This document shows positions 17,202 through 36,865 of a stretch of DNA of 64,000 nucleotides, piece by piece. The position numbers were made by a program, and so were the translations under genes. The DNA is from Tissierellia bacterium. Its GTDB lineage: Bacteria > Bacillota > Clostridia > Tissierellales > Sedimentibacteraceae. Below the pieces are notes generated by a model that ran no database searches, was not told the DNA's origin, and worked only from the letters and a program-made list of their open reading frames with translations. Each line of letters opens with the position of its first letter. Positions within the stretch are counted from its first letter, which is position 1. The stretch covers positions 1 to 64,000 of the forward strand of contig DURT01000031.1 of assembly GCA_012843025.1 (NCBI GenBank). Direction: 5' to 3'.

Positions 17202-18068
17202 ATGCGAGGTTACTTTTACGAATCACCAGACTCCTTTGAAAAGCTTTTCGAAGTTTTAAAGGATAACTCAAGGGAGATTAAATTTTTAGCTGGCGGATCA
17301 GACTTTGTACCCAGATTGAATTTGGAAAGGGAACAAGCTCCCAAAGAAAATAAAAAAGACTTATTGATAATAAACTTGTCTGAGTTGGGATTGAATACTA
17401 TAACGGAAAACGATAGTGAAGTTATTATAGGTGCAACGACAACTTTTACGGAAATACAGAAAAATGACATTATTAAAAGAGAATTTCCTGTTTTGATTGA
17501 AGCCATAAATCAAATAGCAGGTCTTTCCGTAAGAAATATTGCAACTATTGGTGGTAATATTATGAATGCATCACCAGCTGCAGACTCGGTTCCCTCCCTT
17601 GTGGTTTTAGATGCTGTATTTGTATTAAGGGGACCAGAAGGTTCAAGAAATGTGGAAGCAAAAGAATTTTTCACAGGTCCTGGCAGAACAGTAGCTAAAG
17701 AAAATGAAGTTCTAACACATATAATAATAAGAAAAAATAAAGGTTTTGCAGGTTTCAATAAACTTGGTAGAAGAAAGGCAGAAACTCTTTCTGTAGTTAA
17801 CGCAGCTGCATATATAGAAAGAGAAAACAATGTATGCAAAGTTGCAAGAATTGCGGTTGGTTCAGTAGCTCCTACTGTAGTTAGATGCAAGGAAGTAGAA
17901 GAATTATTGAACGGCAAGGAGCTTACAGAGGAAAATATAAGAGCAGCTAGCGAAAAAGTAGTTGATGAGATTAGTCCTATTGACGATATAAGAGCATCAG
18001 CCTGGTATAGAAGAAGAGTTGCCCCTGTAATTGTAAGAAGGGCAATTGAAGCAGCTATTGTTGAATAA
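17202..18068 (+). CDS. Molybdenum hydroxylase FAD-binding subunit (CoxM/NdhF-like)
   Basis: FLAGGSDFVPRLN, INQIAGLSVRNIATIGGNIMNASPAADSVPSLVVLDA. Confidence 0.9.
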   Translation: MRGYFYESPDSFEKLFEVLKDNSREIKFLAGGSDFVPRLNLEREQAPKENKKDLLIINLSELGLNTITENDSEVIIGATTTFTEIQKNDIIKREFPVLIEAINQIAGLSVRNIATIGGNIMNASPAADSVPSLVVLDAVFVLRGPEGSRNVEAKEFFTGPGRTVAKENEVLTHIIIRKNKGFAGFNKLGRRKAETLSVVNAAAYIERENNVCKVARIAVGSVAPTVVRCKEVEELLNGKELTEENIRAASEKVVDEISPIDDIRASAWYRRRVAPVIVRRAIEAAIVE

Positions 18069-18080
18069 GGAGGATAAACT

Positions 18081-18581
18081 ATGTCTGAAATATTAAGTTT
18101 TTACTTAAATGGTAATCCAGTAGAGGTCTTGGTTAAACCTGAACAGACTTTACTTGAAGTATTAAGGGACGATTTAGGTCTGACAAGCCCTAAATGTGGA
18201 TGCAATCATGGAGATTGCGGTGCATGTACTGTTATACTTGATGGAAAAGCTGTAAAATCATGTTTAGTACTAGCTCCTACAGTTAAAGGAAAAAAAGTTA
18301 TAACTGCTGATGGACTTTGTTCAGGAGAAAAATTGCATCCAATTCAGCAAGCATTCTTAGATTATGGAGCACCCCAGTGCGGTTATTGTACTCCCGGCAT
18401 GGTGATGGCGGCAACAGCTTTTCTTTTGGAAAATCCTAAACCTACAAGAGAAGAAATTAAGGAAGCTTTAAGCGGCAACTTATGCAGATGTGCAGGATAT
18501 GATAAATATGTTGAAGCAGTATTAGCGGTTTCAAATGGTGAATTTGGATTATTGCCGGAAGGAAGTGATATTAATGTTTAA
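18081..18581 (+). CDS. Molybdenum hydroxylase 2x[2Fe-2S] subunit (CoxS/NdhS-like)
   Basis: CGCNHGDCGACTVILDGKAVKSCL and CGYCTPGMVMAATAFLLENPKPTREEIKEALSGNLCRCAGYDKYVEAV. Confidence 0.95.
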   Translation: MSEILSFYLNGNPVEVLVKPEQTLLEVLRDDLGLTSPKCGCNHGDCGACTVILDGKAVKSCLVLAPTVKGKKVITADGLCSGEKLHPIQQAFLDYGAPQCGYCTPGMVMAATAFLLENPKPTREEIKEALSGNLCRCAGYDKYVEAVLAVSNGEFGLLPEGSDINV

Positions 18582-19863
18582 AAGTGTAGGAAAAAGAGTT
18601 AAAAAATACGATGGAGTAGGATTAGTTACTGGAAGAATGACATATGTAAGTGATCTTACTATGCCAAATATGTTGATTTGTAAAACTCTTAGAAGCCCAT
18701 ATCACAGAGCTAAGCTAAACAAGGTAGATGTATCGGAAGCTTTAAAGGTTCCAGGCGTATATGCTGTTATAACCAAAGATGATGTACCCCATAATTATTT
18801 CTCAATGGTTCCAGACCACCATGTTTTAGCTGAAGATCTTATCAGGTATAAAGGACAAAATATTGCAGCAGTAGCAGCAGTAAGCAAAGAAGCTGCATTA
18901 GAAGCAATATCGAAAATTAAACTTGACATTGAAGAACTTCCTTATGTTATAGACCCAGTTGAGGCATGCAAACCAGATGCTCCAAAAGTAAGACCTGAAG
19001 GTAATCTTCACTTGTTTGATGGTGTAAGTGAAGTTAGAAAAATAAGAAAGGGCGATGTTGAGAAAGGATTTGCAGAAGCTGATTATATAGTTGAGGGAAC
19101 TTACACAACTCCATGTCAGGAACATGCTCCATTGGAAACATGCGCTTCTTTGGCATACTTGGATGAAGCAGGAAAGTTGGTTATCCATTCAAAATCTCAA
19201 GGTTTGTATTTTTCACAGGGAGACCTTGCCAATGTATTCCAGTTACCTTTAAATAAGCTGAAATTTGTTGGAGGAACAATAGGTGGAGGATTCGGTGGTA
19301 TGAACAGTATTCATACTGACCATATAGCAGGACTATTAGCTTTAAAAACAGGACGACCTGTTAAGTTTCAGCTGACAAGAGAAGAAGAAATGCTTTATTC
19401 AACTATCAGAAGTCCATGGATCTTTAAGTTTAAAGATGGTATTAAGAAAGACGGTACTATTACTGCAAGGAAAATAGAAGTTCTACATGATTGTGGAGCA
19501 TATACCGAATTAGGATTATATGCAGTTGAAAAAAATGCTAATATGATTGCCGGGGCAGTAAAAGTTGAAAACTTAGCAATAGACTCTAAAATGGTTTATA
19601 CCAATAAAATGCCAAGCGGTTCAATGCGTGGATTTGGTGTAAACGTAGGACAGTTTGCAGACCAGGTTCAGATTGACAAACTTGCACGTGCTGTAGGCAT
19701 GAGTCCTATAGAGGTAAGACTGAAAAATGCATTTAAAGAGAACGATGAAAATCATGTTGGAAACAAATTAGTTGCAGTTTCTGCCATAGAAACACTAAAA
19801 ATGGTTGCTGAAATGGCAGGAGAAGAAATCTCTCCTGAGTATGCAAATTTGAGTTCTAAGTAA
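18574..19863 (+). CDS. Molybdenum hydroxylase molybdopterin-binding large subunit, N-terminal half (NdhL-like)
   Basis: KRVKKYDGVGLVTGRMTYVSDLTMPNMLICKTLRSPYHRAKL, GGFGG, PVKFQLTREEEM, GSMRGFGVNVGQFADQVQIDKLA; start 18574 fits family better than 18535. Confidence 0.88.
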   Translation: MFKSVGKRVKKYDGVGLVTGRMTYVSDLTMPNMLICKTLRSPYHRAKLNKVDVSEALKVPGVYAVITKDDVPHNYFSMVPDHHVLAEDLIRYKGQNIAAVAAVSKEAALEAISKIKLDIEELPYVIDPVEACKPDAPKVRPEGNLHLFDGVSEVRKIRKGDVEKGFAEADYIVEGTYTTPCQEHAPLETCASLAYLDEAGKLVIHSKSQGLYFSQGDLANVFQLPLNKLKFVGGTIGGGFGGMNSIHTDHIAGLLALKTGRPVKFQLTREEEMLYSTIRSPWIFKFKDGIKKDGTITARKIEVLHDCGAYTELGLYAVEKNANMIAGAVKVENLAIDSKMVYTNKMPSGSMRGFGVNVGQFADQVQIDKLARAVGMSPIEVRLKNAFKENDENHVGNKLVAVSAIETLKMVAEMAGEEISPEYANLSSK

Positions 19864-19877
19864 GGATGGTGAATTAG

Positions 19878-20885
19878 ATGATCAAAAAAGGAAGAGGAGT
19901 AGCAAATGTTTATTATCCAACTGGCTTTAATGGTGGCGGAGATCCTGACTTAGTATCCCTACGTATCAAAGCCGATGGAACAATCGACATGACAAATGCA
20001 AGCTGCGAAATGGGTCAGGGTTTTAAAACTGTTGCAATACAAATGGCAGCTGAAGCTTTAGGAGTAAGTGAAGAATTATTTACAATAGATAATTCAAATA
20101 CGGATACAACAGCATTCAGTATGGATACTGCAGGTAGTAGGTCTACCTACATAGTTGGTTTAGCTGCAATATCTGCTGCAAATAACTTAATAGAGAAAAT
20201 GAAAGAATTTGTTGCAGGCGTAAAAGGTTGCAGTCCTGAAGAATTAGACTATAAAGAAGGAAGAGTTTTCAAAAAAGATGATGAAAATGTAGCTATGACT
20301 TTGCAAGAAATTGGGACAGCATCAACCTACGGAGGAGTTTTCATAATGGGTGCAGGTGGGTTTTTACCACCAGTTGGTCCACCAAGAGATCCAGAAACAG
20401 GCTTTACTGTACCAAGCAGATCCTATGCATGGGGTTCTACAATAATTGATGTTGAAGTAGATACAGAAACCGGTGTTGTTACAGTTGAGAATATATATAA
20501 TTGCTATGATATTGGTACTGTTATAAATCCCCTACAAGCAGAAGGCCAGGTTGATGGAGGAAATGTCCAAGGAATAAGTATGGCATTATTTGAAGATTTA
20601 GCTCCTTATTTCCCTGAGAGCATTGAAGCATATGCAGCAGATTTTACGGATTATATTATTCCTACATTTATGGATATTCCTAAACATAGTGAGATAAAGT
20701 TCTATGAAAACTATGACCCCTACGGCCCATTCGGTGCAAAAGGTTGCGGCGAGATGGTTACAAATACACAGTCCCCAGCCATAGCAAATGCCGTTTATGA
20801 TGCAATAGGTGTATATATTGATTCACTTCCAATTACTCCTGAAAAAGTATTAAGAGCGTTGGATGAAAAAAATAAAACTAACTAG
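19878..20885 (+). CDS. Molybdenum hydroxylase molybdopterin-binding large subunit, C-terminal half (NdhM-like)
   Basis: SCEMGQGFKTVAIQMAAEALGV, DTAGSRSTYIVGLA, GPFGAKGCGEMVTNTQSPAIANAVYDAIG. Confidence 0.88.
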   Translation: MIKKGRGVANVYYPTGFNGGGDPDLVSLRIKADGTIDMTNASCEMGQGFKTVAIQMAAEALGVSEELFTIDNSNTDTTAFSMDTAGSRSTYIVGLAAISAANNLIEKMKEFVAGVKGCSPEELDYKEGRVFKKDDENVAMTLQEIGTASTYGGVFIMGAGGFLPPVGPPRDPETGFTVPSRSYAWGSTIIDVEVDTETGVVTVENIYNCYDIGTVINPLQAEGQVDGGNVQGISMALFEDLAPYFPESIEAYAADFTDYIIPTFMDIPKHSEIKFYENYDPYGPFGAKGCGEMVTNTQSPAIANAVYDAIGVYIDSLPITPEKVLRALDEKNKTN

Positions 20886-20919: not shown

Positions 20920-21004
20920 CAACCAATTATAGTATATAATAGTAACTAGCTGTAGTATATATTAGCATAATTTTTTATAATTGCAATAAATTATGGAGAT
21001 GAGT

Positions 21005-21847
21005 ATGCAAGAAATTGTTATTTTCGGTGCTGGACAAAGTGGAAGAATGATCAGAAGGTTGCTTAACGGAAAGATTGAACGGATTTGGTATGCTGACAAT
21101 AATTATAGAAACCTTCCAAGTTATGTGGATAATGTTTTAGTAATATCTCCAAAAGAAATTGTAGACATTAACCCGGACATGGTTATTGTTTCAGTATTAA
21201 ATAAAGAAGCTGCGGAAGAGATTTGTTCCCAGCTCTCAGAACAAGATATATGTAAATCAAAAATACTAAATATCAATAGTTTAAGAAATCTGTTTGATAT
21301 AAGGCTGGCAACTTTACGGTTGCAGGCACAAGAAATAAACAACAAAAAAATAGAAGGAAGTATTGCTGAATTAGGAGTTTATAAAGGATATATAGCAAGG
21401 GAACTAAATATCTTATTCAAGGAACGCAAATTATATCTCTTCGATACGTTTGAAGGATTTGACAATAGAGACATAGAATATGAAAGAACCTTAGGAAGCA
21501 ACAAAAAAATAATTAATAATTTCAGTGACACAAGTGTAGAACGAGTTAAGAGTATACTGCCTTATCCTGAAAATGTAGTCTTTAGTAAAGGTTACTTTCC
21601 CGAAACTGCAGTAAGTATTGAAGATAAGTTTGCATTAGTAAGTCTTGATACGGACTTATACCTTCCCACTCTTAATGGTTTAAGGTACTTTTATAAAAGA
21701 CTTAGTAATGGGGGACGTATTTTGGTTCACGACTATAACAGCAGCCAGTTTCCTTTAGTAAAAAAAGCTGTTGATGATTTTTCCAAGGAATTAGACATAA
21801 AAATAATCCCATTATGCGATTTGCATGGTAGTGCAGTAATTATTTAA
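21005..21847 (+). CDS. TylF/MycF-like (macrocin O-methyltransferase family) SAM methyltransferase with N-terminal nucleotide-binding-like domain
   Basis: N-term IVIFGAGQSGRMIRRLL; C-term GSIAELGVYKGYIARELN, LYLFDTFEGFD, FALVSLDTDLYLPTLNGLRYFYKRLSNGGRILVHDY. Confidence 0.7.
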   Translation: MQEIVIFGAGQSGRMIRRLLNGKIERIWYADNNYRNLPSYVDNVLVISPKEIVDINPDMVIVSVLNKEAAEEICSQLSEQDICKSKILNINSLRNLFDIRLATLRLQAQEINNKKIEGSIAELGVYKGYIARELNILFKERKLYLFDTFEGFDNRDIEYERTLGSNKKIINNFSDTSVERVKSILPYPENVVFSKGYFPETAVSIEDKFALVSLDTDLYLPTLNGLRYFYKRLSNGGRILVHDYNSSQFPLVKKAVDDFSKELDIKIIPLCDLHGSAVII

Positions 21848-21949
21848 TATATATTAAGTAAGTTAATTTATCAAAACTCAATTATTAAAATTAACAATTG
21901 TAATAATAGTTTTTTATTGTTAAAATAATAATGGAAAGGATAAAAATGG

Positions 21950-22885
21950 ATGTCTAAAAAATCAAAGAAGATTATTGTAACGGCAGCTGTTACAGGAGGA
22001 ATTCATACTCCTTCAATGACTCCCTACCTACCTTGTGGGGTAGAAGGTATATCCAAAGCTGCAATAAAGGCAGCCAATGCAGGTGCATCAATCGTACATA
22101 TTCATGCAAGAGAGGATAATGGAAAACCAACTTCTGACTTGGAAACGATTGGAAAAATATTAAAAAAGATCAAAGAAAACTCTGATGTTATTATTGGTAT
22201 AACTACCGGTGGGGCATTAGGCATGACATTAGAGGAGCGTTTAGCTGTAATTCCTGCATTTAAACCAGAGATAGCATCTTTCAACAGTGGTTCGATTAAT
22301 TTTAATATATCAGAAATGGCCAAAAGCATTAAAGAACCGAAATATGATTGGGAAGTACCATTTTTAACCAGTACAAAGAAAAATGTATTTAGTAATACAT
22401 TTGAGGAAATGGAAAGATGTATTGAAATTATGAACGATGCAGGGACTGTTCCAGAATTTGAAATCTTTGATTTTGGACAAATTCATAATATTAAGTACTT
22501 ATTCGACAAAGGACTAATTAAAAAACCCTTATATTTTCAGTTTGTTCCTTCAGTCTTAGGTGGTATTCCTCTTAATCCAGATAATGTATGGTATTTTGTT
22601 AACCAACTTAAAAAGACATTTGGTGAAGATGTAAATTTCTCAATGGTATCAGCCGGAAGACGAATCTTTCGTTATGAAGTGCTTTCAGCAATTTTAGGTG
22701 GTAATGTTAGAGTAGGATTGGAGGATAGTTTATACATTAATGTGAGTGGCGAATTGGCAACTAGCAATTCACAACAAGTAGAAAAAATTATCAATATATT
22801 AAAAATGCTTGATTATGAAATTGCAACACCGGATGAAGCGAGAGAAATTCTGAATACTAAAGGAAAAATCAATGTAAATTTCTAA
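21950..22885 (+). CDS. BKACE family protein (beta-keto acid cleavage enzyme, DUF849)
   Basis: KKIIVTAAVTGGIHTPSMTPYLPCGVEGISKAAIKAANAGASIVHIHAREDNGKPTSDLETI, NVRVGLEDSLYI. Confidence 0.9.
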   Translation: MSKKSKKIIVTAAVTGGIHTPSMTPYLPCGVEGISKAAIKAANAGASIVHIHAREDNGKPTSDLETIGKILKKIKENSDVIIGITTGGALGMTLEERLAVIPAFKPEIASFNSGSINFNISEMAKSIKEPKYDWEVPFLTSTKKNVFSNTFEEMERCIEIMNDAGTVPEFEIFDFGQIHNIKYLFDKGLIKKPLYFQFVPSVLGGIPLNPDNVWYFVNQLKKTFGEDVNFSMVSAGRRIFRYEVLSAILGGNVRVGLEDSLYINVSGELATSNSQQVEKIINILKMLDYEIATPDEAREILNTKGKINVNF

Positions 22886-22932: not shown

Positions 22933-23289
22933 TTATGAATTAAAGAACTCATTAAAATAATCATCAAATATTTCTGAAGCTTTTGCAGTTAGTTCTTTTT
23001 CAAATTCATCATACTTATTCAGAAAATCTATACATTTAGGAGTTAAACTGGAACCGCCTCCGCCTAAACCGCCAATTTTTCGGTCCAACAGTTTAAAACC
23101 AAGGTTTTTCTCAGTCCCCTTAACCATTTTTAAAGCTTTTGAATAAGATAAATTCATTATTTTACAGGCTTCATTTAATGATTTATATTCGTCAGTTAAT
23201 CTAAGCAAAGTTCTGACACCGGGACCGAAAAAGACAGCATCTTTAGCTAAGCGAATTTGTAAGATATAATGTAGTTTTTTCATAAGCAA
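22933..23289 (-). CDS. ModE-like winged-HTH regulator (no C-terminal molybdate-binding domain)
   Basis: LAKDAVFFGPGVRTLLRLTDEYKSLNEACKIMNLSYSKALKMVKGTEKNLGFKLLDRKIGGLGGGGSSLTPKCIDFLNKYDEF. Confidence 0.85.
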   Translation of the reverse strand: MLMKKLHYILQIRLAKDAVFFGPGVRTLLRLTDEYKSLNEACKIMNLSYSKALKMVKGTEKNLGFKLLDRKIGGLGGGGSSLTPKCIDFLNKYDEFEKELTAKASEIFDDYFNEFFNS

Positions 23290-23366
23290 CCTCCTCTATA
23301 CTATATTATCAAAGATTTTAAAGAAATGACAGTAAAAAATTAATACTCACATATTTTTTTTAACAC

Positions 23367-23390
23367 CGTTATGTTTTTAAAAACATAGCG
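23367..23390. promoter_or_regulatory. ModE-box-like palindrome between modE-like gene and methyltransferase operon
   Basis: CGTTATGTTTTTAAAAACATAGCG, palindromic except one position; matches the CGnTATnT-N8-AnATAnCG layout of ModE sites as recalled. Confidence 0.65.
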
Positions 23391-23469
23391 ACTATCTGAG
23401 AATCTTATGGAGGAGAAAAATAAGTAATAGTCATCTAATTTACAAAATAAACTGCAAAAGGAGATTTGA

Positions 23470-24252
23470 TTGAGCTTGAAAACTTTAAAAGTTTATGAAA
23501 AGAGAGCAGGTTGTTCAAAAGTTAAATTTGGTTGGAATCCCCAAAGTGTACAGTGGTATTTAGAATCAGAACAAAATACGTCCTTTTATAGAAAGACAGT
23601 CGAAGAATTACATCCCTTTATACATGACTGTAAAACTCTTTTAGACATTGGATGCGGGATAGGAAGTTTTGCTGTTGAGTTTGCTAAGAAAGGATATAGT
23701 GTTACGGCTATTGACAAGTCCTCCTTAGCTGTAGAATCCTTAATGGAAAAAGCAAGACTTATGAACTTATCAAATTTAAAAGTTATAAACAAATCTTTTG
23801 AAGAATTTATCTTCGACAATAATTATGACATTGTGTTTATCAGTTACATGATGGGGTTAGTAAATGATAACAACATAATAGATTTTCTAAAAATAGCCAA
23901 TAAGCGCTTAGTAATAGTCTTGCCCTTTAGCAAAATAAAGAATGATTTTTCCATTAATGAACTTTATACCGAATTAGGAGTTGATTTAAAAAACTTGGAG
24001 CAGTTTAATTATGCCAGCATGTTAAACATATTAAATAAAAGGAATTATAAATATATTATTAAAAAAGTATCAGCTGAATTTGGCCAACCTTTTGATAATA
24101 TTGATGAAGCAGTAAATTTTATATACCACTATTTCAAACTTCCAGTTGAAAGAAGTGATGATGTAAGAGAGTGGTTAAATAGAAAAACAACATATAAAAA
24201 CGGTAAGCTCTTTTTACCTAATTTAAGAGAAAGTATGATGATTATTATTTAA
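23470..24252 (+). CDS. Class I SAM-dependent methyltransferase
   Basis: TLLDIGCGIGSFAVEFAKKGYSVTAIDKSSLAVESLMEKA motif I/II; TTG start after AAAGGAG. Confidence 0.8.
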   Translation: MSLKTLKVYEKRAGCSKVKFGWNPQSVQWYLESEQNTSFYRKTVEELHPFIHDCKTLLDIGCGIGSFAVEFAKKGYSVTAIDKSSLAVESLMEKARLMNLSNLKVINKSFEEFIFDNNYDIVFISYMMGLVNDNNIIDFLKIANKRLVIVLPFSKIKNDFSINELYTELGVDLKNLEQFNYASMLNILNKRNYKYIIKKVSAEFGQPFDNIDEAVNFIYHYFKLPVERSDDVREWLNRKTTYKNGKLFLPNLRESMMIII

Positions 24253-24262
24253 GGAGGAAGCA

Positions 24263-24799
24263 ATGATAAGAGAAAGATTTAATTTAACAGAAATGATTTA
24301 CATTTCATTATTGGCTACCATAGCAACTATTTCAAAGACTCCAATAAGGGCATTATCAAATTTCATGACAAGTTCAGTAGGACTACCTGGGGGAGTTGTG
24401 GGAGGAGTTTACTACATGTTTTGGATTGTGGCTGCCTGTGCCTTAGTGAAGAAACATGGGGCTGCAACACTGTTTTGTATTATACAAATATTTGTATCAT
24501 TGGCTACATCCAGTATGCCTGTTATTAGACTGATAACATATCTTCCTCCTGGAATAGCAATTGATTTATTCCTGTTATTCCGAAGAAATAGCGAATATAA
24601 CAAAGGGGTTATGATGTTTTTAGGTGCTATTGCTAATACTGCTGGTGCAGCAACTCAAGCAATTGTTATTATGAATCTTCCCTTAATAGCAACACTAATA
24701 AGTTGTTTTACTGCATTTGTTTCCGGTGGGGTGGGAGGTTATTTGGCATACTTGGTTGTATTACGAATAGTCCACGCTGTGGGAATTAAAGCTAATTAA
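24263..24799 (+). CDS. ECF-transporter S-component-like integral membrane protein
   Basis: About six hydrophobic segments; TEMIYISLLATIATISKTPIRALSNFMTSSVGLPGGVVGGVYYMFWIVAACALV pattern. Confidence 0.6.
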   Translation: MIRERFNLTEMIYISLLATIATISKTPIRALSNFMTSSVGLPGGVVGGVYYMFWIVAACALVKKHGAATLFCIIQIFVSLATSSMPVIRLITYLPPGIAIDLFLLFRRNSEYNKGVMMFLGAIANTAGAATQAIVIMNLPLIATLISCFTAFVSGGVGGYLAYLVVLRIVHAVGIKAN

Positions 24800-24800
24800 T

Positions 24801-25394
24801 ATGAATCGTATTCTATTCTTAGAAGGAACCATGCAGATTGGCAAAAGCACAATTATTTTGGATAATATAAAAAGACATAAGCTTTTAGAGCACACTGGAG
24901 GATTTCTATGCCAAAGGCTGACAAAAGGAAGTAAAACAAAGGCTTATCGCCTCATTGAAGCAGAAAAGGCAGAAGTTACAGCAACAGAATACCATGAGAA
25001 TTTACCTAGTATTTTTTTAGAAGAGGTGGCAGGTAATTGGGTTAAAAGGGACCAGGTATTTTTAAACAGAGGGATTGAACTCCTATCAGACCTGTCTTCA
25101 AGAAAGCTTATTCTATTAGATGAAATTGGAGGATTTGAGCTTTTAATTGATGAATTCAGGGAAAAACTCTATGAGGTACTTCTGAGCAGCACTCCAATAA
25201 TAGGAGTTATTAAGTCTTTTGACAATGGCAGGGTCATGAAAAATGCTATAGGAATAAATGATGTCTATTATTCAAAATACAAGGCACTTCGCTCATTTAT
25301 AACGGACAATAATGGAATAATAGTAAATGTTAATAATAATAACATTGAAAGTATCAATAATGAAATAAAAAGTTTTTTATGTAATATTGTATAG
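24801..25394 (+). CDS. THEP1-like nucleoside-triphosphatase (P-loop NTPase)
   Basis: FLEGTMQIGKSTIILDNI (P-loop-like), TGGFLCQRL, KLILLDEIGGFELLIDEFREKLYEVL Walker B, PIIGVIKS. Confidence 0.75.
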   Translation: MNRILFLEGTMQIGKSTIILDNIKRHKLLEHTGGFLCQRLTKGSKTKAYRLIEAEKAEVTATEYHENLPSIFLEEVAGNWVKRDQVFLNRGIELLSDLSSRKLILLDEIGGFELLIDEFREKLYEVLLSSTPIIGVIKSFDNGRVMKNAIGINDVYYSKYKALRSFITDNNGIIVNVNNNNIESINNEIKSFLCNIV

Positions 25395-36628: not shown

Positions 36629-36720
36629 ATGCAAGTTCAGGATTTTTGATATGTTATAAAAATAACGCTTGACAAATAAGAATATATAGTTTAAAGTATG
36701 TAGAAATTAATATTTAAACT

Positions 36721-36865
36721 TCTTATCAAGAGAGATGGAGGGAACGGCCCAGTGAAGTCTCGGCAACCTACATTCGTAAGGTGCCAAATCCGGCAAAGAT
36801 TTCTTTGAAAGATGAGGAGGAGATATAGAAATATAATCCTCTCTTCATGGGAGGAATTTTTTATG
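36721..36865 (+). ncRNA. SAM-I (S-box) riboswitch with downstream terminator
   Basis: CTTATCAAGAGAGATGGAGGGAACGGCCCAGTGAAGTCTCGGCAACC...GGTGCCAAATCCGGCAAAG..GATGAGGAGG, then CCTCTCTTCATGGGAGGAATTTTTT; upstream of metY. Confidence 0.95.

Follow-up and report, generated by a model that had tools for sequence, protein, structure and literature searches.

A ModE-type operator and an ECF S-component operon beside molybdenum hydroxylases in Tissierellia: a candidate route for molybdenum cofactor uptake

Molybdate uptake in Escherichia coli is regulated by ModE, whose site has the layout CGTTAT-N12-ATAACG; a literature search found no paper giving the letters of that site. The general view is that every cell makes its own molybdenum cofactor (Moco), because free Moco is unstable. 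We know of no bacterial Moco transporter, and the literature search found no paper on a Moco or molybdopterin transporter of the type considered here. One survey of coenzyme uptake under riboswitch control names B12, thiamin, riboflavin, queuosine and folate, and Moco is not among them (PMC3766115). Likewise, the description of the Moco/Tuco riboswitch regulon (RF01055) names Moco biosynthesis, molybdate transport and Moco enzymes, and no ECF transporter (PMC2408646). The nearest described systems to the components treated here are the permease YkoE (HMP/thiamine), the NTPases THEP1 and NTPCR, the flavin ECF exporter EetB-FmnA of Listeria, and the yqeB/yqeC/ygfJ set for the maturation of selenium-dependent molybdenum hydroxylases.

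The locus described here lies in a 64-kb stretch of DNA, which in its full length is referred to as the window, from the draft genome of a Tissierellia bacterium (G000; 2.2 Mb, 97 contigs, 97% complete). In it, a gene for a ModE-type regulator is divergent from three genes encoding a class I SAM methyltransferase (MT), an ECF-type S-component and a THEP1-like P-loop NTPase (hereafter the trio), which are separated by only 10 bp and then 1 bp (22933-25394; Table 1). Both this arrangement and the three identities had been proposed in a sequence-only reading, and they are borne out by the open reading frame calls and by the Methyltransf_25, PF09819 and NTPase_1 profiles. Compared with the sister genome G014, whose locus is L019, all four genes are under purifying selection, with dN/dS values of 0.19 for the regulator, 0.16 for the MT, 0.14 for the S-component and 0.29 for the NTPase, the neighbouring enzymes being more tightly constrained (0.08). 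The nearest named relative of the host is the Tissierellia MAG JAAYRW010000047.1, with an 87% identical S-component, the range among relatives of the same genus being 67-87%. A contig scan with a single query sequence returned one locus. A riboswitch scan of the window gave no match at the operon; a SAM riboswitch (RF00162, 90 bits) was found at 36720-36818 (+).

Table 1. Coordinates of the main features, in window positions unless a locus is named
Feature	Position	Strand	Remarks
Hydroxylase, four-subunit Mo enzyme	17202-20885	(+)	NCBIfam XDH family
Hydroxylase FAD subunit	17202-18068	(+)	
Hydroxylase FeS subunit	18081-18581	(+)	
Hydroxylase Mo subunit, split	18535-19863 + 19878-20885	(+)	
TylF-like MT	20993-21847		between hydroxylase run and operon
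BKACE enzyme	21950-22885		between hydroxylase run and operon
ModE-type regulator	22933-23289	(-)	predicted N-terminal winged-helix domain only; ATG 23283 likely start, behind GAGGAGG; 118 aa
Putative ModE-type operator	23367-23390		CGTTATGTTTTTAAAAACATAGCG; best CGTTAT-N12-ATAACG match of 64 kb
Class I SAM methyltransferase (MT)	23470-24252	(+)	TTG start behind AAAGGAG
ECF-type S-component	24263-24799	(+)	PF09819, YkoE-related, trio clade; profile match
THEP1-like P-loop NTPase	24801-25394	(+)	NTPase_1, PF03266; profile match
L018 (G000:C46:6000-24000), Moco/Tuco riboswitch	L018:661-776		
L018, S2 cluster	L018:836-17828		

The earlier placement of the operon directly after the hydroxylase run has to be corrected, as genes for a TylF-like methyltransferase and a BKACE enzyme intervene. 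In the sister genome, XdhC and MobA-HD genes lie between these two (L019:4155-6280), where the window has a gap of only 103 bp (21847-21950). The best PDB matches of the hydroxylase are chains A and B of nicotinate dehydrogenase (3hrd); no nicotinate pathway genes were recognised adjoining it.

Like E. coli ModE, the regulator appears to have a LysR-like winged-helix N-domain, which matches the structures 2ijl and 1b9m and the profile TIGR00637 (ModE_repress; E 5e-11, 42.5 bits, under the 98.5 cut-off and over the N-domain only). Unlike E. coli ModE, its 118 residues hold no C-terminal molybdate-binding TOBE/Mop domain detectable with Pfam or NCBIfam, and its putative target is the MT/S/NTPase operon rather than modABC. 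It is 86% identical to its counterpart in L019 and 38% identical to that in L021.

The dyad that the sequence-only reading had noticed as near-perfect and of ModE-site layout is a 24-bp palindrome with 14-nt arms of 93% complementarity, of the same type as the E. coli site. The pattern CGNTATNTTTNNNNAAANATANCG has a single match without mismatches in the 64 kb, and in the whole 2.2-Mb draft CGTTAT-N12-ATARCG is matched exactly at this dyad alone. With one mismatch allowed, the host has further matches in the neighbourhood of housekeeping or unrelated genes, and a backwards-read control pattern gave more matches genome-wide than the real one, so that one-mismatch matches carry little weight and the case for the operator rests on its conservation. 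A CGTTAT-N12-ATAACG-like site is kept at the homologous operon in nine loci from nine genomes and four families: the window, L019, L020, L021 and L022 within the genus, L093 (f49), L094 and L095 (f41), and L096 (f39). Their summed consensus is CGTTATATTTTTAAAAATATAACG. In eight of the nine, no other site of the locus matches as well as the one at the operon (in L020 there is a tie), and a chance operator was rejected on this ground. The site is conserved despite differences in gene order and transporter. The site lies between the ModE and NTPase genes in L093, L094 and L095; in L094 it falls within the mechanically called NTPase frame, whose true start is probably further inside. In L020, L022 and L096 the site is present and the ModE gene is absent from the available stretch, and L062, L063 and L097 have neither such a site at the operon nor a ModE gene in view. 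From this conservation, we infer that the ModE-type protein binds the palindrome and controls the trio, presumably in response to Mo or W.

Concerning the trio itself, the MT (Methyltransf_25, E 2e-12) is TehB-like in its N-half, the only part covered by the PDB TehB match, whereas its C-terminal half is distinctive in the alignment (EFGQPF...EA..FIYHYF). The NTPase (NTPase_1, E 6e-14; THEP1 1ye8, E 1e-15 with an alignment profile; Walker A IGKST, Walker B LLDE) belongs to the same P-loop family as THEP1 and NTPCR (1ye8, 2i3b), but differs from them in being part of a Mo-linked operon. The S-component scores 33.3 bits against PF09819 (cut-off 25.2), the YkoE family. It resembles YkoE in its length of about 180 aa and in coming without an ATPase or EcfT of its own. 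However, even YkoE (5edl), the closest relative with a solved structure, is only very distantly related (E 9e-4 with an alignment profile), and the trio S-component differs from it in its Mo context and in lacking thiamine regulation: none of the loci scanned showed a TPP riboswitch, and no thi genes were identified beside the trio S-component. No close homologue has an assigned vitamin. EcfT (CbiQ) and ABC ATPases are encoded in the host, in the paralogous cluster L018. AlphaFold models built from two-sequence alignments were poor, with mean pLDDT values of 38.8 for the S-component and 52.6 for the NTPase.

Within the genus, the gene order is MT-S-NTPase in the window and L019, and NTPase-MT-S in L020, L021 and L022. 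In all five loci the trio and Mo-hydroxylase subunits are at most about 12 kb apart; four of the loci have XdhC and three MobA-HD. MoCF-domain, ETF-domain and histidine phosphatase genes accompany the trio in L020 and L022, and L021 has YqeB (TIGR03309, 360 bits over a cut-off of 220) at one end and ModE at the other. The wider distribution was determined by a class-wide search with the MT as query. G278 (L093) shows the order ModE-NTPase-MT-S, and in G329 and G303 ModE-NTPase-MT lies directly 5' of hydroxylase subunits; at L085 and L086 NTPase and MT are placed directly before such subunits. The stretch of hydroxylase genes in L094 and L095 runs on into YqeC, MocA, XdhC and YqeB, together with an NCS2-like permease and a PucR-like regulator, both named by eye. 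G215 carries NTPase-MT-S after a PucR regulator, adjoining a probable microcompartment and hydantoinase cluster; G217 carries only NTPase-S; and in other genomes NTPase-MT, or the MT alone, sits beside FecCD-type transporters or DUF364. This comparison identifies NTPase-MT as the core of the module and the transporter as its variable part, which differs or is absent in L085, L086, L094 and L095. Because the core occurs with XdhC, YqeB, YqeC, MocA-like proteins or hydroxylase subunits in several families, a role in the service of Mo hydroxylases is well supported, and the regulatory and neighbourhood evidence together make it very likely. By its neighbourhood the trio is linked to genes for the maturation of Mo hydroxylases, a role that the sequence-only reading had named as one possibility. 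YqeB, YqeC, MocA-like proteins and XdhC are shared with the yqeB/yqeC/ygfJ set, but in the parts of the paper on that set reached by a term search, no methyltransferase or NTPase figures among the accessory genes (PMC2276186).

The host encodes a second S-component, S2 (G000:C46), which is about 30% identical to that of the trio, the two forming separate groups with support of 100/99. Its cluster (L018), headed by a Moco/Tuco riboswitch, comprises SLH-anchored Oxidored_molyb, FMN_bind-Oxidored_molyb and Fer4_5-FMN_bind proteins, a phosphodiesterase/nucleotide-pyrophosphatase-like protein, two ABC ATPases (EcfA), EcfT (CbiQ), MobB and an APH/RIO-like kinase. RF01055 is present at S2 clusters in six loci (L018, L024, L028, L030, L031 and L032), among them the compact operon L024:6004-9605 (-), where the riboswitch stands directly 5' of S2, an extracytosolic Oxidored_molyb protein, EcfA, EcfA and EcfT. 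The paralogous ECF cluster is thus placed under the Moco/Tuco riboswitch, unlike the operon of the window, which has no riboswitch match. The L018 aptamer lacks P3, a form which has been linked to the tungsten cofactor (Regulski et al., PMC2408646). As in EetB-FmnA, an ECF S-component for a redox cofactor would here lie with FMN_bind and extracytosolic redox proteins; the Listeria system differs in its substrate, a flavin and not a pterin, in acting in export, and in its family, PF07456 (PMC9973259). Clusters of the L018 type recur across the order, and in f16 genomes an NTPase_1-like gene is divergent from S2 (L064:4496-5062, L065:9737-10315).

XDH-family hydroxylases are encoded in 20 of the 27 genomes of the family. 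Four of these 20 (G000, G014, G015 and G025) lack MoaC, and MoaA is absent from the same four plus G010 and G013; MoeA_N is missing from G000 and G014, with one copy kept in G025 and one in G015. MoaE (PF02391) was uninformative, with weak matches in four of the 27 genomes and absences even where MoaA and MoaC are present. Three trio genomes, G000, G014 and G025, thus have XDH-family hydroxylases without MoaA and MoaC. The host is a draft and moa/moe genes are often clustered, so a single assembly gap could hide several of them; G025 comes close to a closed genome (2 contigs, 99% complete). Within the family, the trio occurs in three of the four hydroxylase-bearing genomes without MoaC versus two of the 16 with it (hypergeometric p about 0.03, calculated by hand on relatives that are not independent), an association that should be read as suggestive, since G000 and G014 are sisters. 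The combination of Moco enzymes with missing Moco-biosynthesis genes does not extend to the trio genomes G004, G009, G278 and G215, all of which keep MoaC, as does G217 (NTPase-S). Outside the family MoaC is found in G278, G215, G217 and G329, and is absent from G303, where ModE-NTPase-MT has no S-component adjoining. Strict auxotrophy as the role of the trio was rejected on account of these retentions, and the trio is no simple replacement of synthesis. Among the S2 genomes, G031, G033, G036 and G189 (97-99% complete) have hydroxylases and lack MoaC.

We favour the reading, at a probability of about 0.45, that the S-component imports molybdopterin or a Moco-type pterin, because it fits both the moa/moe losses and the riboswitch-controlled S2 paralogue. 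The trio would be an accessory operon serving molybdenum hydroxylases under a ModE-type operator. Its S-component would join ECF ATPases and EcfT encoded elsewhere to take up the pterin, and the NTPase, which may be kinase-like and serve in trapping, would work with the MT, perhaps acting on the pterin or on a chelator, to process the pterin, to trap it or to load it for the adjoining xanthine-dehydrogenase-family enzymes. The host and some of its relatives have hydroxylases and apparently no Moco-biosynthesis genes, and there uptake would take the place of de novo synthesis; in relatives keeping the pathway it would be a supplement. The salvage of a pterin or Moco-related compound had been suggested from the sequence; the missing biosynthesis genes and the riboswitch on the paralogue strengthen this suggestion, and the retention of MoaC in several trio genomes counts against it. 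Pterin import is further weakened by the distant NTPase-MT pairs with FecCD or DUF364, which fit metal or chelate uptake equally well, by the HMP/thiamine permease being the only solved relative of the trio S-component, and by the P3-lacking riboswitch of L018. The direction of transport is likewise an assumption, and export is conceivable, cofactor export being within the reach of ECF systems (PMC9973259).

A broader proposal, which we hold slightly more tentatively, is that of a dedicated bacterial uptake of molybdopterin or of Mo/W cofactor through ECF transporters with two related S groups. One would belong to the ModE-type operons next to Mo hydroxylases, the other to clusters that combine a Moco/Tuco riboswitch with EcfA, EcfA, EcfT and surface Oxidored_molyb proteins; species lacking moaA, moaC and moeA could thereby operate their molybdoenzymes with cofactor that neighbours have made. 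The trio module may be how cells that seem to lack Moco-synthesis genes obtain Moco or its pterin part externally. Should these S-components carry a pterin, Moco would become one of the cofactors that microbes share, and ModE-type sites and riboswitches would offer a direct route to finding and testing such transporters.

The main rival, rather unlikely in our estimate, is the acquisition of the metal itself: molybdate, tungstate or a small Mo/W chelate would enter through the S-component, or else through a FecCD-type ABC transporter encoded elsewhere, with MT, NTPase and DUF364 making or opening the chelator and ModE repressing when the metal is plentiful. This agrees with the ModE-type operator, with the regulation of molybdate uptake by ModE in E. 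coli, and with the FecCD/Peripla_BP_2 transporters that adjoin NTPase-MT in other genomes, some of them together with DUF364. According to the DUF364 structure paper, the transport of molybdate and tungstate is part of the genome context of this domain, and a derivative of a pterin or siderophore is proposed (PMC2954201). However, PF09819 is a family of vitamin-type S-components; MobB, Oxidored_molyb and the nucleotide-pyrophosphatase-like protein of the S2 cluster suit a cofactor better than an ion; and metal alone would not give G000 and G014 Moco, because both lack MoaA, MoaC and MoeA. A maturation module is less probable again. Here the NTPase-MT core would modify or insert the cofactor, perhaps in a selenium-dependent manner, and the transporter would supply a different small molecule for that step, in keeping with the constancy of NTPase-MT beside changing or absent transporters, the YqeB and YqeC markers nearby, and the nicotinate dehydrogenase-like enzyme of the window; it leaves the Moco-riboswitch S paralogue and the missing moa/moe genes unexplained. 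Lastly, uptake of thiamine or HMP by a YkoE-type precursor transporter lying near the hydroxylase by chance would suit the PF09819 assignment and the match to 5edl, but is very improbable, because TPP riboswitches did not turn up in the loci scanned, nor thi genes beside the trio S-component, and the ModE-type operator and Mo-hydroxylase context are conserved in several families.

Some of the more distant loci have further neighbours of their own. In G215 (L062:1686-12704) these are BMC-like, UbiD/UbiX-like, hydantoinase-like and isochorismatase-like genes, most of them named by the look of the sequence only. In L098:6612-10312 and L100:3244-10193 the MT lies beside DUF364 with cobalamin riboswitches nearby, and in L098 it is accompanied by the NTPase and by a CobW/HypB-type GTPase.
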